The position numbers and the translations under genes are program-made. A stretch of 45,190 nucleotides of DNA from an uncultured Pseudomonadota bacterium (lineage in GTDB: Bacteria; Myxococcota_A; UBA796; SXON01), in contig CAIXRH010000174.1 of NCBI GenBank assembly GCA_903921785.1, positions 1 to 45,190 on the forward strand, written 5' to 3'. Positions 19,419-24,962 of the stretch are shown one piece after another. The notes beneath the pieces are model-generated. The model was not told the origin of the DNA and made no database searches. It worked only from the letters and a program-made list of their open reading frames with translations. Every line of letters begins with the position of its first letter. Position 1 is the stretch's first letter.

Positions 19419-20993
19419 CTACCGCCCCACCGCCTCCGCGCCCGCGTTCTCCCCGGCCACCCGCCCGCCGAGCACCACCGCCGTGAGGGAGCCGGTGAAG
19501 CCGTAGTCCCCGACCATCGAGCCTCCCGCCATGCCGGACACCTCCCCGGCGGCGTACACCCCGGGGATCGGGTTGCCGTCGGTGTCGAGGACGCGGCCCT
19601 GGAGGTCCACATCCACGCCGCCGAACGCCTTGGCTGCCGATGCGGCGACGGGAACGGCGTAAAACGGCGCGTCGCGCACCGGCACCCCGGGGTCGGCGGC
19701 CGGGTCCCGGTAGGGGTCGGTCACCCGGCCGTCGGCGCTGTCGTTCCACTCGGCCACGGTGGTGCCGAGGGTGGTCGCGTCCAGGCCGACGGAGCCGGCG
19801 AGCGCGTCGAGGTCGTCGGCGCGGAGGGCGATCCCGGCGTTGACCAGCTCCTCCAGCGAGCGGAACCTCCCCGTGGCGGGGTTGAGGAATCGGGTGGCCT
19901 CGAAGTGGCGGTCCGCGACCAGCCAGGCCAGCCCGCCCGGCTGGTTGACCCGGGTTCGACCGACGATGAAGCTGTTCACCCCCGACTCGTCCACGAAGCG
20001 CTCGGCGGAGAGGTTCACCCAGGGGGCGCTGCTCATGTCCAGGGTCACCACCTCGCTGAGCGCGGTGTCCGGGTCGAGCGTCCCGTGGGCGTAGAACCCG
20101 ATCGCCTGGAGGTTCTGGGTGCGCGCGCCGAGCCCCTCCAGCATCGTGAGCCCGGCGCCGTCCGCGCCGACGAAGGAGCCGTAGGCGAGCTGGGTGTCGT
20201 CCAGCTCGGGGAAGAGCGCCCGCACCCGGTCGAGGTCGCGGAGGAAGCCGCCGGTGGCGACGATGACCGCGTCGGCGCCGAGGGTGTGCTCGCCAGACGC
20301 GTCGGTCCAGCGGACGCCGGCCACGCGGCCGTCGTGCACCAGGAGCTCCTCGGCGGTGGACGCCAGGCGAAGGTCCAGGTCGGGCTGCTGGTCGAGCAGC
20401 GCCTGGACCAGCGCTTCCCCTTCCCCCTCCACCTCCTCCACCCGGTCGGTGACGCCGGACGAAGGATCCCCGCCGGGCACGGTCCAGCTCACGCCGAAGC
20501 CCTCCAGCCAGTCGTGGACCATCGCCACGTTGTTCTCGGCGAAGAACTGGAACCAGGGGTCGGTGACGTCGCCGCCGGTGAAGTCGGGCCACTCGGCGGC
20601 GAGCTGCTCCGGCGAGTCGACGATGCCCGCCGACGCCTGCTCCGGCGAGCCGGAGAACATCATCAGCCCGCCCGCCCACATCGCCGCGCCGCCCGCCTCG
20701 GGTTCGCGCTCGAGGATCACCACCGACGCGCCGGCTTCCCGCGCTTCGATCGCCGCGGAGAGCCCCGCGACCCCCGCGCCGATGATCACCACGTCCACCG
20801 CTTCGTCGACGACCCAGGGGTCCCCGGAGTCGCCGGTGTCGGCGCTGTCGCCCGAGTCGACACTGTCGGCGGTGTCCCCCGTGTCGCCGCTGTCGGCCGT
20901 GTCGCCGGTCACCGACGAGTCGACGGGACGGCGGTCGGGCGACGCAGAGTCGCCCGGCGTGGGGTCACACGCCGCGAGCAGCCAGAGGATCAT
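19419..20993 (-). CDS. FAD-dependent flavoprotein, fumarate-reductase-like, lipoprotein-anchored
   Basis: A 524-residue protein with a lipobox in its first nine residues (MILWLLAAC). Residues about 12-60 form a linker made almost only of Asp, Ser, Thr and Gly (DSGDTGDTADSVDSGDSADT). Then comes a Rossmann FAD site (VVIIGAGVAGLSAAIEAREA), the EREPEAGGAAMWAGGLM segment, ADAVIVATGGF and a C-terminal GVYAAGEVSGMAGGSMVGDY, all typical of the FAD_binding_2 fumarate reductase/3-ketosteroid dehydrogenase group. It would face the periplasm or surface on a flexible tether. The electron donor and substrate are unknown; there is no heme motif. The ATG overlaps the TGA of the HMA chaperone gene (ATGA). Confidence 0.87.
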   Translation of the reverse strand: MILWLLAACDPTPGDSASPDRRPVDSSVTGDTADSGDTGDTADSVDSGDSADTGDSGDPWVVDEAVDVVIIGAGVAGLSAAIEAREAGASVVILEREPEAGGAAMWAGGLMMFSGSPEQASAGIVDSPEQLAAEWPDFTGGDVTDPWFQFFAENNVAMVHDWLEGFGVSWTVPGGDPSSGVTDRVEEVEGEGEALVQALLDQQPDLDLRLASTAEELLVHDGRVAGVRWTDASGEHTLGADAVIVATGGFLRDLDRVRALFPELDDTQLAYGSFVGADGAGLTMLEGLGARTQNLQAIGFYAHGTLDPDTALSEVVTLDMSSAPWVNLSAERFVDESGVNSFIVGRTRVNQPGGLAWLVADRHFEATRFLNPATGRFRSLEELVNAGIALRADDLDALAGSVGLDATTLGTTVAEWNDSADGRVTDPYRDPAADPGVPVRDAPFYAVPVAASAAKAFGGVDVDLQGRVLDTDGNPIPGVYAAGEVSGMAGGSMVGDYGFTGSLTAVVLGGRVAGENAGAEAVGR

Positions 20994-21751: not shown

Positions 21752-21828
21752 CCCGGCGAGCCGACTCCCGGCGAGCCGACTCCCGGCGAGCCGACTCCCG
21801 GCGAGCCGACTCCCGGCGAGCCAGATTC
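21752..21828 (+). repeat. 15-base tandem repeat, about five copies
   Basis: Four exact units of CCCGGCGAGCCGACT (21752-21766, 21767-21781, 21782-21796, 21797-21811) are followed by a degenerate fifth. The unit length is a multiple of three, so every frame reads as a pentapeptide repeat (for example PGEPT or RRADS), but no start or coding context supports translation. It lies 31 bases before the start of the dioxygenase gene and may vary in copy number by replication slippage. Confidence 0.8.
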
Positions 21829-21837
21829 CGGGGCGTT

Positions 21838-22832: not shown

Positions 22833-22935
22833 GGGCCCTCCGCCTCCGCCGGCCCTACAGCGATCGGGGGTCCGTCAGCTTCCCGGTGACCGCGCTGGCC
22901 GCGGCGACGGCGGGAGAGACCAGGTAAACAGGGCC
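22833..22935 (-). pseudogene. Decayed copy of the 3' end of the aconitase-superfamily gene
   Basis: This 103-base stretch aligns without gaps to 23027-23129, exactly 194 bases away and in the same orientation. The coding part (22855-22935) encodes GPVYLVSPAVAAASAVTGKL then TDPRSL and a stop; the intact gene differs only by Phe for Tyr. About 15 of 81 coding bases differ, all but one synonymous, including TCT against AGC for serine. The homology continues 22 bases past the stop. It has no start or upstream gene body, so it looks like the tail of a lost paralogue. Confidence 0.75.
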
Positions 22936-23048
22936 GGCACCCTCCGCGCCGGCGGTGCGGCGCTCCGGGCCGGCTCCGGGCCCCTCGCGGCCTTGTCGGC
23001 CGCGTGCCTCGAATGACTCGGCACCGGGGCCCTCCGCGTCGGCGGGGC

Positions 23049-24962
23049 CTACAGCGACCGAGGGTCCGTCAGCTTCCCGGTGACGGCGCTGGCCGCTGCA
23101 ACCGCGGGGCTCACGAGGAACACTGGCCCCGCCGACCCCATTCGCCGGTCGAAGTTGCGGTTCGTGGTGCTCGCCGTGGTCTCGCCGGGGAGCGGGATGC
23201 CCGGGCCGTTGCCGATGCAGCTCCCGCAGCCCGGGGGCGACACGACCGCGCCGAGGTCCTTGAACAGGGCGAGGAGCCCCTCCTTCTCGGCCGCCGCGGC
23301 GACGTCGAAGCTGGAGGGGGTGACGGTGACCCGGACCCCCGGGCCGATCTTGCGGCCGCGGAGCACGTCGGCGGCGGCGCGGAGGTCGGCCAGGGAGCCG
23401 CCGGTGCAGGAAGCGATGACCACGTTGTGGATCGCCACGTCGGTCATGTCGGAGAGGGAGGCGCGGTTGCGGCTGTCCCCAGGGGTGGCGACGGTGAGCG
23501 GCACATCGTCGAGGTTGACCTCGATGACGCGCTCGTAGGTGGCGCCCTCGTCGGGGTGCACGAGGTCGGCCGTGCAGTCGACGCCGCGGCGGGCCTTCAC
23601 GAAGTCCACGATCGGCTTGCAGGGCTCGACCACGCCGGTCATCAAGCCGCCTTCCACCGTCATGTTGGTGAGGACGGAGAGCTCGTCCACGCTCCAGTGG
23701 TCGAGCGCGGGGCCGCCGAGCTGGATCACGCAGGTGTCCGTCGGCGAAGAGCGCCAGTGCTCCTCGCGGAAGTACGGATCCCCGATGATGTGGAGGATGA
23801 GGTCCTTCGGGGAGAGGACGCCCTTCGGATCGCCCGAGACCACGATGCGGACGACCTTCGGCACCGTGACCGGGATGAGCCCGGTGCGGAACGCGAAGGC
23901 CATGGCGGTGCTGCCGACGCCGAACGCGAAGGCGTTCATCACGCCCGCGGTGGGGGTGTGGCTGTCGGTGAGGACGATCACGTCCCCCGGACGGGCATAA
24001 TCTTCCACCACGAGGCGGTGGCAGACGCCGGGCTTGAACGGACGCCCCGGCCCGTGGAGGCGGATGCCGTACTCTTCGCACGCATCCACCATCTCGGCGG
24101 TGAGCTGCTTCGCGGGGGCGAGGCGGGCCTTCTTCACGTTGTCGGGGACGGTGGGCTCGTCGATGAGCACGAAGTGGTCTTCGAAGGCGGCGATGAGATC
24201 GGGCTCGACCATCGGCGCGGCGCCGAACGCTTCGCGGTAGAGCGAGACGACCATGCCGGCCGTGTACTCGTGCACGCCGCGGAAGCCGGTGCGGCAGAGC
24301 ACCTGATGGCCGGGCGCCACCGCCGCGATGCCGTGATCGGTGCCGCCGACCCAGGTCTTCCGGGCGATGATCTTCTCCACCGCGTTGAGCGGCCGGGCGG
24401 GCACCGCCACGTCGTACGTGGGCTGCACTTCCCCCGCGAGGAGCCGCTTGCCGTACTCCAGGAGGCCGCCCCCCTCGGCGACGGCGCGAAAGAAGTCCGG
24501 AAGGTCCTCGAAGAACTTCCGAGTGTCCACCTCTTCGCCGCCCTGGAGCCGGTCGATCACCGAGAAGTCGGTGGTGAACGGCATGCCGCCGTAGACCATG
24601 TTCTCCTGGAAGATGCGCTGGAAGCTCCGCGCCACCACGAGCTCGATGCCCGCGCCTTCGTGGGCCACCACCGCCACCTCTCGCGAGGAGCCGGAGCCGT
24701 AGGCGTCGCCGCCGACGATGACCTGGAAGCCGCCGGACTGCACCGAGTCCTTGCGCACGACCTCCTTGAAGTTCTCCAAGAACCAGGGGCCGAGCACCGC
24801 GGGGGTGTACCCGAGCGTGCAGGCCGCGCCCGAGATCATCAGGTCGGTGTTGACGCCATAGTGCAGCGGTTGGCCGGCCCAGGCGAGGTTCTCCCCTTGA
24901 AGCTGGGAGTTCACCAGGGCGGGGTCGTCCGCCAGGAACAGGATGCGGCCAGTGAGCTTCAT
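23049..24962 (-). CDS. Aconitase/isopropylmalate-dehydratase superfamily protein, swivel domain first
   Basis: A 637-residue [4Fe-4S] hydro-lyase. The small swivel domain comes first (about 1-190, with YGSGSSRE at 88-95 and ARSFQRIFQENMVYGGMPF), followed by the catalytic domains. The cluster ligands are Cys519 (ASCTGGS) and Cys579/Cys582 (GCGSC). VLTDSHTPTAGVMNAFAFGV is the substrate-domain signature. The order is that of AcnB without its HEAT domain, and the reverse of AcnA or a LeuC-LeuD fusion. It interconverts a hydroxy-acid such as citrate, homocitrate or isopropylmalate; which one is not clear. GATAG lies ten bases before the ATG. A duplicate of its last 27 codons lies downstream. Confidence 0.87.
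   Translation of the reverse strand: MKLTGRILFLADDPALVNSQLQGENLAWAGQPLHYGVNTDLMISGAACTLGYTPAVLGPWFLENFKEVVRKDSVQSGGFQVIVGGDAYGSGSSREVAVVAHEGAGIELVVARSFQRIFQENMVYGGMPFTTDFSVIDRLQGGEEVDTRKFFEDLPDFFRAVAEGGGLLEYGKRLLAGEVQPTYDVAVPARPLNAVEKIIARKTWVGGTDHGIAAVAPGHQVLCRTGFRGVHEYTAGMVVSLYREAFGAAPMVEPDLIAAFEDHFVLIDEPTVPDNVKKARLAPAKQLTAEMVDACEEYGIRLHGPGRPFKPGVCHRLVVEDYARPGDVIVLTDSHTPTAGVMNAFAFGVGSTAMAFAFRTGLIPVTVPKVVRIVVSGDPKGVLSPKDLILHIIGDPYFREEHWRSSPTDTCVIQLGGPALDHWSVDELSVLTNMTVEGGLMTGVVEPCKPIVDFVKARRGVDCTADLVHPDEGATYERVIEVNLDDVPLTVATPGDSRNRASLSDMTDVAIHNVVIASCTGGSLADLRAAADVLRGRKIGPGVRVTVTPSSFDVAAAAEKEGLLALFKDLGAVVSPPGCGSCIGNGPGIPLPGETTASTTNRNFDRRMGSAGPVFLVSPAVAAASAVTGKLTDPRSL

Follow-up and report, generated by a model that had tools for sequence, protein, structure and literature searches.

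A short structured element at duplicated gene ends, including an aconitase tail, in a family of uncultured bacteria

Introduction

Small palindromic repeats are usually thought to be intergenic because insertions into coding sequence are harmful. An insertion strategy that spares the target gene is, to our knowledge, so far known from integrase-bearing islands. In ICEs and islands the direct repeats can consist of the exact gene end and nothing more (PMC4701971); integrative elements can also replace the 5' end of a gene with their own (PMC4482086). At the level of DNA, template switching can give rise to hairpin stems and keep them paired through changes that look compensatory, and covariation alone cannot separate an RNA structure from such DNA-level template switching (PMC8794818).

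The window analysed here, i.e. the whole stretch of 45,190 nucleotides, carries an aconitase-like gene whose 3' end is present twice, and between the two copies lies an element of about 100 nt, here called E. Genomes, contigs and loci are numbered with G, C and L respectively, the genome of the window being G000.

The duplicated end of the aconitase gene

The gene belongs to the aconitase/3-isopropylmalate-dehydratase superfamily (Table 1), with a swivel (LeuD-like) N-terminal domain followed by a C-terminal catalytic domain. It is conserved through most of the order at 64-87% identity, passes none of the NCBIfam equivalog cut-offs and possibly represents an unnamed subfamily. As the preliminary description of this DNA had stated, its last 27 codons recur without gaps exactly 194 nt downstream; the living end (T1) and the second copy (T2) lie on the same minus strand. 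Over the 27 codons and the stop there are 16 nucleotide differences, distributed over the three codon positions as 1, 2 and 13, so that 13 codons differ synonymously (including one AGC/TCT pair) and a single one non-synonymously (Phe/Tyr). The silent bias that had been pointed out was upheld by a formal check: the probability of 13 or more third-position differences out of 16 is 1.2e-4, and none of 200,000 neutral simulations was as silent, i.e. showed one amino-acid change or fewer. The reading of T2 as a tail that was recently functional or has been renewed from a functional one is likewise upheld. The differences are unevenly spread, the 5' half being more diverged than the 3' half. Since most relatives have Tyr at the Phe/Tyr site, T2 is the more ancestral of the two at this residue. 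Furthermore, T1 and T2 differ at 15 of 78 nt, a distance similar to that between species of the genus, whose tails mostly differ at 15-24. The duplication is unlikely to be an assembly artefact, because both tails lie in one contig and are 19% different, and because relatives assembled elsewhere display the same layout.

Table 1. Features of the aconitase locus, in coordinates of the window.
Feature	Position	Strand	Remark
Aconitase/3-isopropylmalate-dehydratase-superfamily gene	23049..24962	-	637 aa
T1, living 3' end of the gene	23049..23132	-	27 codons and stop
T2, second copy of the 3' end	22855..22938	-	
X1	23125..23136	-	GTCGGCGGGGCC; within the gene, where the duplication begins
X'	23038..23049	-	GGCCCCGCCGAC; exact reverse complement of X1, immediately 5' of E
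E, complete copy	22940..23037	-	three-way junction, then third hairpin; 3' end degenerate
Hairpin 1 (H1) of E	23004..23024	-	GTGCCGAGTCATTCGAGGCAC
Hairpin 2 (H2) of E	22987..23003	-	loop GACAA
X'2	22848..22855	-	GGGCCGGC; complement of the first bases of T2 (GCCGGCCC)
Remnant of the 5' start of a second E	22833..22847	-	GGAGGCGGAGGGCCC; putative

Similarity past the two stop codons is present as claimed, but it is not ordinary flanking sequence: it consists of two versions of an antisense arm, X', and of the start of E. The complete E stands downstream of T1 and the remnant downstream of T2. The preliminary description had thus overlooked three things: E itself in the spacer, its antisense arm, and the remnant past the second tail. 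The same layout with a second-E remnant is found past the duplicated groEL tail at L277 (G016). In the closest relative, G006, the aconitase gene has its own matching X1/X' pair (GGTCGGCC/GGCCGACC) and an E remnant at the same place, with neither a tail copy nor a paralogue.

Elsewhere in the window, a 15-bp tandem repeat (CCCGGCGAGCCGACT) at 21752-21831 lies just upstream of a convergent PhyH-like gene and overlaps its possible start, and 9-bp repeats at 20821-20902 encode an Asp/Ser/Gly/Thr-rich linker in a flavoprotein-like gene.

Structure and distribution of E

When the window region was searched against its own genome by BLAST, before any model existed, the matches fell on the spacer and not on the aconitase tail. 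Related copies were found on contigs C171 (twice, 194 nt apart), C210, C199 and C125, and the C210/C171 copy follows the ftsK stop codon and precedes a second ftsK tail, a layout like that at aconitase. The 21-nt hairpin 1 is identical in five contig copies of G000 (the end of C210 and the start of C171 probably overlap) and in two copies of G006, and a compensatory change is seen in G007. In a first alignment of six copies, 94% of cells were paired and covariation was 0.557 against 0.121 after shuffling. A model built from these six copies retrieved dozens more, and among 50 distinct copies 93.4% of cells pair, double changes occur in 16 of 17 pairs, and covariation reaches 0.649, compared with 0.137 after shuffling and no more than 0.08 after sliding. 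The 50-copy alignment was guided by the covariance model (CM) and hence fitted to the structure, so that the six-row one, which was not, is the cleaner covariation test; the larger one was used for the pair counts since a MAFFT alignment of full E was poor around H1. Single-sequence folding of the window spacer is unremarkable (z -1.46), and the structure is visible only in comparative data.

E is about 100 nt long. It begins with GCGGAG and a stem A that closes H1 and H2, continues with a stem B carrying H3, and ends in GTGA, which gives the covarying family signature GCGGAG-stem A(H1,H2)-GNAGCC-stem B[CGGAG-H3-GTGA]. Stem A, H1, H2 and H3 are all present in the window copy, which scores 92.2 bits with CM R1, a model built partly from that very copy, and 81.4 bits with R2. 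Rfam gave no match at the window up to an E-value of 1 and only scattered sub-gathering matches at seven other E loci; in these covariance-model comparisons, which include HEARO and group I/II introns, E matches no family convincingly.

E is present in 16 of the 22 genomes of the window's family (uncultured 'Deltaproteobacteria') and, marginally, in one of 41 other genomes of the order. A DNA pattern of its 3' part was found in none of the viral contigs searched; in GTDB genomes it was found in 13 stretches, ten of them with a model match below an E-value of 0.01, all in MAGs fitting the window's family. The named records of these hosts are uncultured 'Deltaproteobacteria'/'Proteobacteria' MAGs, some of them mislabelled. 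Indeed, two E-carrying records titled Bifidobacterium breve and Klebsiella pneumoniae (CALQBK020000065.1, L129, and CAMAWH010000062.1, L130) match genomes of the window's family (G016:C65 and G012:C62 respectively), and their titles look wrong. E is dispersed, and it is recently amplified in one genome, G020, which has at least 30 copies, many of them at contig ends. E is a previously undescribed family of structured, dispersed elements.

Several further settings of E were observed. In G020 it is found inside a longer palindromic mosaic (about -200 to +129); at L246 and other loci of this genome the mosaic of palindromic modules around E is recently amplified and spans some 330 nt and contains additional hairpins that covary, e.g. 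CACGTTCG..CGAACGTG vs CACGAACC..GGTTCGTG. Copies are also found inside rhs/YD-repeat genes (L099 in G007:C85, L092, L096, L101, L104 and L086), mostly in frame and up to three in one gene, and, by eye, within IS91-like transposase genes (L091, L087, L097 and L134). At L121 (G000:C125) a tandem 121-bp repeat (GGGGTCAGAGCGATCGCGATCGC...), 97% identical, lies 118-370 downstream of E.

Duplicated ends at other genes

The aconitase arrangement is shared by other genes, the order being gene body, X1, tail, stop, linker, X' (antisense of X1), E and second tail. Tails are duplicated with E at a sulfatase-like gene (61 bp at 98% in G006, 59 bp at 100% in G010), at rpsR (G008 and G010), at ftsK (G000, G007 and G008, in tandem), at an 'NPVLW' gene (G007), at groEL (G012 and G016), at a DsbA-like gene (G012) and at a thiolase gene (G018), where tail copies accompany a four-unit E array. 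Gene starts are affected as well, namely that of a deaminase-like gene including its ATG (G007, G008 and G010) and that of trpS (G012), whose start codon is kept in both copies (TTG/GTG). Several of these gene names are our assumption from the end peptides rather than the outcome of a database search. The groEL tails of G012 repeat the aconitase pattern, reading GGC GAC GAT TAG vs GGA GAT GAC TAA, all silent. T2 usually keeps its stop codon. In the rpsR gene of G008 it has no silent and four replacement changes, and in the DsbA-like gene one silent and three; these amino-acid changes represent neutral decay. Some duplications end within 1-2 bases of the stop or start codon though otherwise identical (TA|A vs TA|G in the sulfatase-like gene of G010, T|GA vs T|AG in the NPVLW gene), and no simple target-site duplication explains an edge at the stop in duplications that are 100% identical.

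As a control, 85 orthologous ends of the aconitase, rpsR, ftsK and sulfatase-like genes were scored, a tail copy being called at an ungapped score of at least 19.5 (all others reached 13 at most) and an E match below 1e-4. A downstream tail copy was found at six of the seven ends with E and at none of the 78 without (hand-calculated Fisher test, about 2e-8). At the seventh, the sulfatase-like end of G000, E and X' are kept and T2 has decayed, and weak E remnants without a tail copy were seen at ftsK of G009 and at the aconitase gene of G006. Orthologous ends thus differ in whether they carry E, and tail duplications accompany it.

The antisense arm

X' abuts E on its 5' side and is the reverse complement of the sequence with which the duplicated stretch begins. 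It matches X1 at 12 of 12 positions for aconitase, 20 of 20 for the sulfatase-like gene of G000 and 13 of 13 for trpS. For ten gene-end copies, all mismatched pairings, or all except about 0.1%, fit less well than X' with its own upstream gene; the fit is weaker for the remaining copies and less clear for short arms. The match follows the living gene, as shown by the different aconitase pairs of G000 and G006, and likewise by the NPVLW gene in G005 and G007.

Away from gene ends, E copies have a short-loop hairpin in place of X'. The gene-end form and the short-loop form appear to be interconvertible, since one unit of the thiolase array lost its tail from that loop. At rpsR the arm may predate E, because the E-less G007 has an X'-like sequence past the stop. 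In G008 (L095, C125), E lies directly downstream of a tRNA-Arg(CCT) gene, and its arm resembles the complement of the tRNA 3' end.

Origin of the duplicated ends

The extra aconitase tail is very probably the product of a gene-end insertion by E, a non-autonomous structured element restricted to this family. The proposed entry point of E is X, within the gene end. The incoming unit, made up of X1, tail, stop, linker, X' and E, would supply a complete gene end and leave the previous end, T2, downstream; because a complete end is supplied, insertion into an essential gene would be harmless. One copy may subsequently be renewed from a functional one by recombination, either with the other copy or with an incoming allele of the gene, so that T1 and T2 would differ like two living alleles, almost only synonymously. 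For the aconitase gene, the E remnant with its own matching X'2 past T2 suggests that T2 was once the living end with an older E, until a T1-X'-E unit from a diverged allele would have arrived upstream; which copy is the original is judged here from this remnant and the sister species, and not from an empty-site strain. In the sulfatase-like gene of G010 the copy beyond E continues into sequence that matches the native downstream region of the E-less G008, hence the distal copy is the old, native end and the proximal one arrived with E. Upkeep is illustrated by the deaminase-like gene, where G007, G008 and G010 share insert, linker and outer flank: the copies are 0-1 nt apart within a species and 2-5 nt between the three species and thus, on small numbers, show concerted evolution, in agreement with the gene conversion proposed earlier.

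One of the two readings offered for the almost purely synonymous differences had been a second complete gene that lost its body. We reject such a deleted tandem paralogue as extremely improbable, as no tandem paralogue of the aconitase gene was found in any of 58 genomes, the spacer is filled by E, the same arrangement recurs at many unrelated genes, the tail duplication is absent from every other aconitase orthologue examined, and G006 has an E remnant at the same site and no paralogue. The aconitase observation is real and is explained in kind, and not by a lost paralogue. A local replication error, with E as a passive palindromic hotspot at which template switching copies the coding end forwards (T2) and backwards (X') in situ, needs no mobility at these sites and seems rather unlikely. 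In its favour, inverted and direct copies around a hairpin are its expected footprint, and a near-perfect foldback closed by a short loop is seen at the NPVLW gene. Nevertheless, E must arrive, given its presence and absence among orthologous ends, and a fresh local copy does not yield the silent divergence of T1 and T2.

Two other explanations were considered. If E were a small self-splicing intron, X' would be an internal guide on the 5' exon, T1 an intronic alternative end and T2 the 3' exon, with both tails translated and selected. The silent differences, the resemblance of X1:X' pairing to P1 of group I introns and the stop codon usually retained in T2 would all suit this, but we know of no self-splicing intron core as small as E, T2 decays in some species, and E copies in essential genes always leave the gene complete. 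An intron is also disfavoured by the antisense copies at gene starts (L090 and L145), where the mRNA would thus lack E, and by the rhs-like genes, in which seven of nine E copies keep the frame (p=0.008, our own reading) as if translated through; we regard it as highly improbable. It is also very unlikely, if slightly less so, that the tails are attachment sites remaining from an integrase-driven island which once sat in the gene end and has since been lost. Islands and ICEs do target the ends of housekeeping genes, but here one and the same E is the insert whatever the species or gene, att sites do not include an antisense arm, and E, which measures about 100 nt (some 200 nt if the tail is counted), has no room for an integrase gene; none was seen beside the window copy.

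No mobilising enzyme was found for the preferred gene-end insertion by E, which also has against it the duplication edges at the stop codon, the X'-like sequence at rpsR of the E-less G007 and the decayed T2 copies. RAYT-like Y1 transposases occur in 10 of the 22 family genomes, all of them E-positive (p about 0.012), a co-occurrence confounded by MAG completeness. Their genes (L281-L292) are mostly one per genome, four in G000, and are flanked by other repeats; at the 12 Y1 loci there is no E below an E-value of 0.01 (best 19.5 bits, E-value 0.015). As putative mobilisers they are linked to E by correlation only. For the insertion reaction, synthesis primed at X could copy E, snap back over X to form the arm and return to the gene end, or E could home by recombination between alleles. 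We tentatively suggest, as a possible but doubtful reading, that E is a novel type of miniature mobile element in which the reaction itself, e.g. target-primed or snap-back synthesis from X, makes both the arm and the gene-end copy; essential genes would thus be colonised unbroken, and E would persist in concerted evolution with the host gene.

Comparison with known systems

E resembles the REPINs and REP elements moved by RAYT (Y1) transposases (PMC3116915) in being short, dispersed, hairpin-forming, vertically persisting and non-autonomous DNA, and candidate RAYT-like genes exist in several genomes of the window's family. However, a REPIN is an inverted REP doublet, an architecture that E does not share, since it combines a three-way junction with a third hairpin. 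Moreover, E duplicates gene ends and carries a gene-specific antisense arm, unlike REPINs, and the RAYT loci are not flanked by E whereas REPIN copies flank the RAYT gene. Rickettsia palindromic elements and intragenic MITE-like repeats are likewise small, structured and inside reading frames, as E is in the rhs-like genes, but elsewhere the effect of E is to rebuild or duplicate a gene end; as far as tested with Rfam, E and these elements are unrelated by sequence.

Integrative elements that re-supply a gene end, such as ICEs in rplL, guaA or ftsK and islands in dusA (PMC4701971, PMC4482086), also keep a conserved gene whole and leave the displaced end as a repeat. These, in contrast, are of kilobase size, bear an integrase and have one target each, while E has about 100 nt, no gene and many targets. 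Template-switch hairpins and quasipalindrome correction (PMC8794818) share with the E loci the inverted copies and the stems kept paired, but template switching alone does not spread a conserved 100-nt sequence through genomes.

In these bacteria a gene-free element of about 100 nt is found at the ends of ftsK, rpsR, groEL, trpS, aconitase and other genes, together with two copies of the gene end and an arm that is antisense to the host gene. This also serves as a warning against taking silent-only differences in a fragment of a gene as proof of a lost paralogue.
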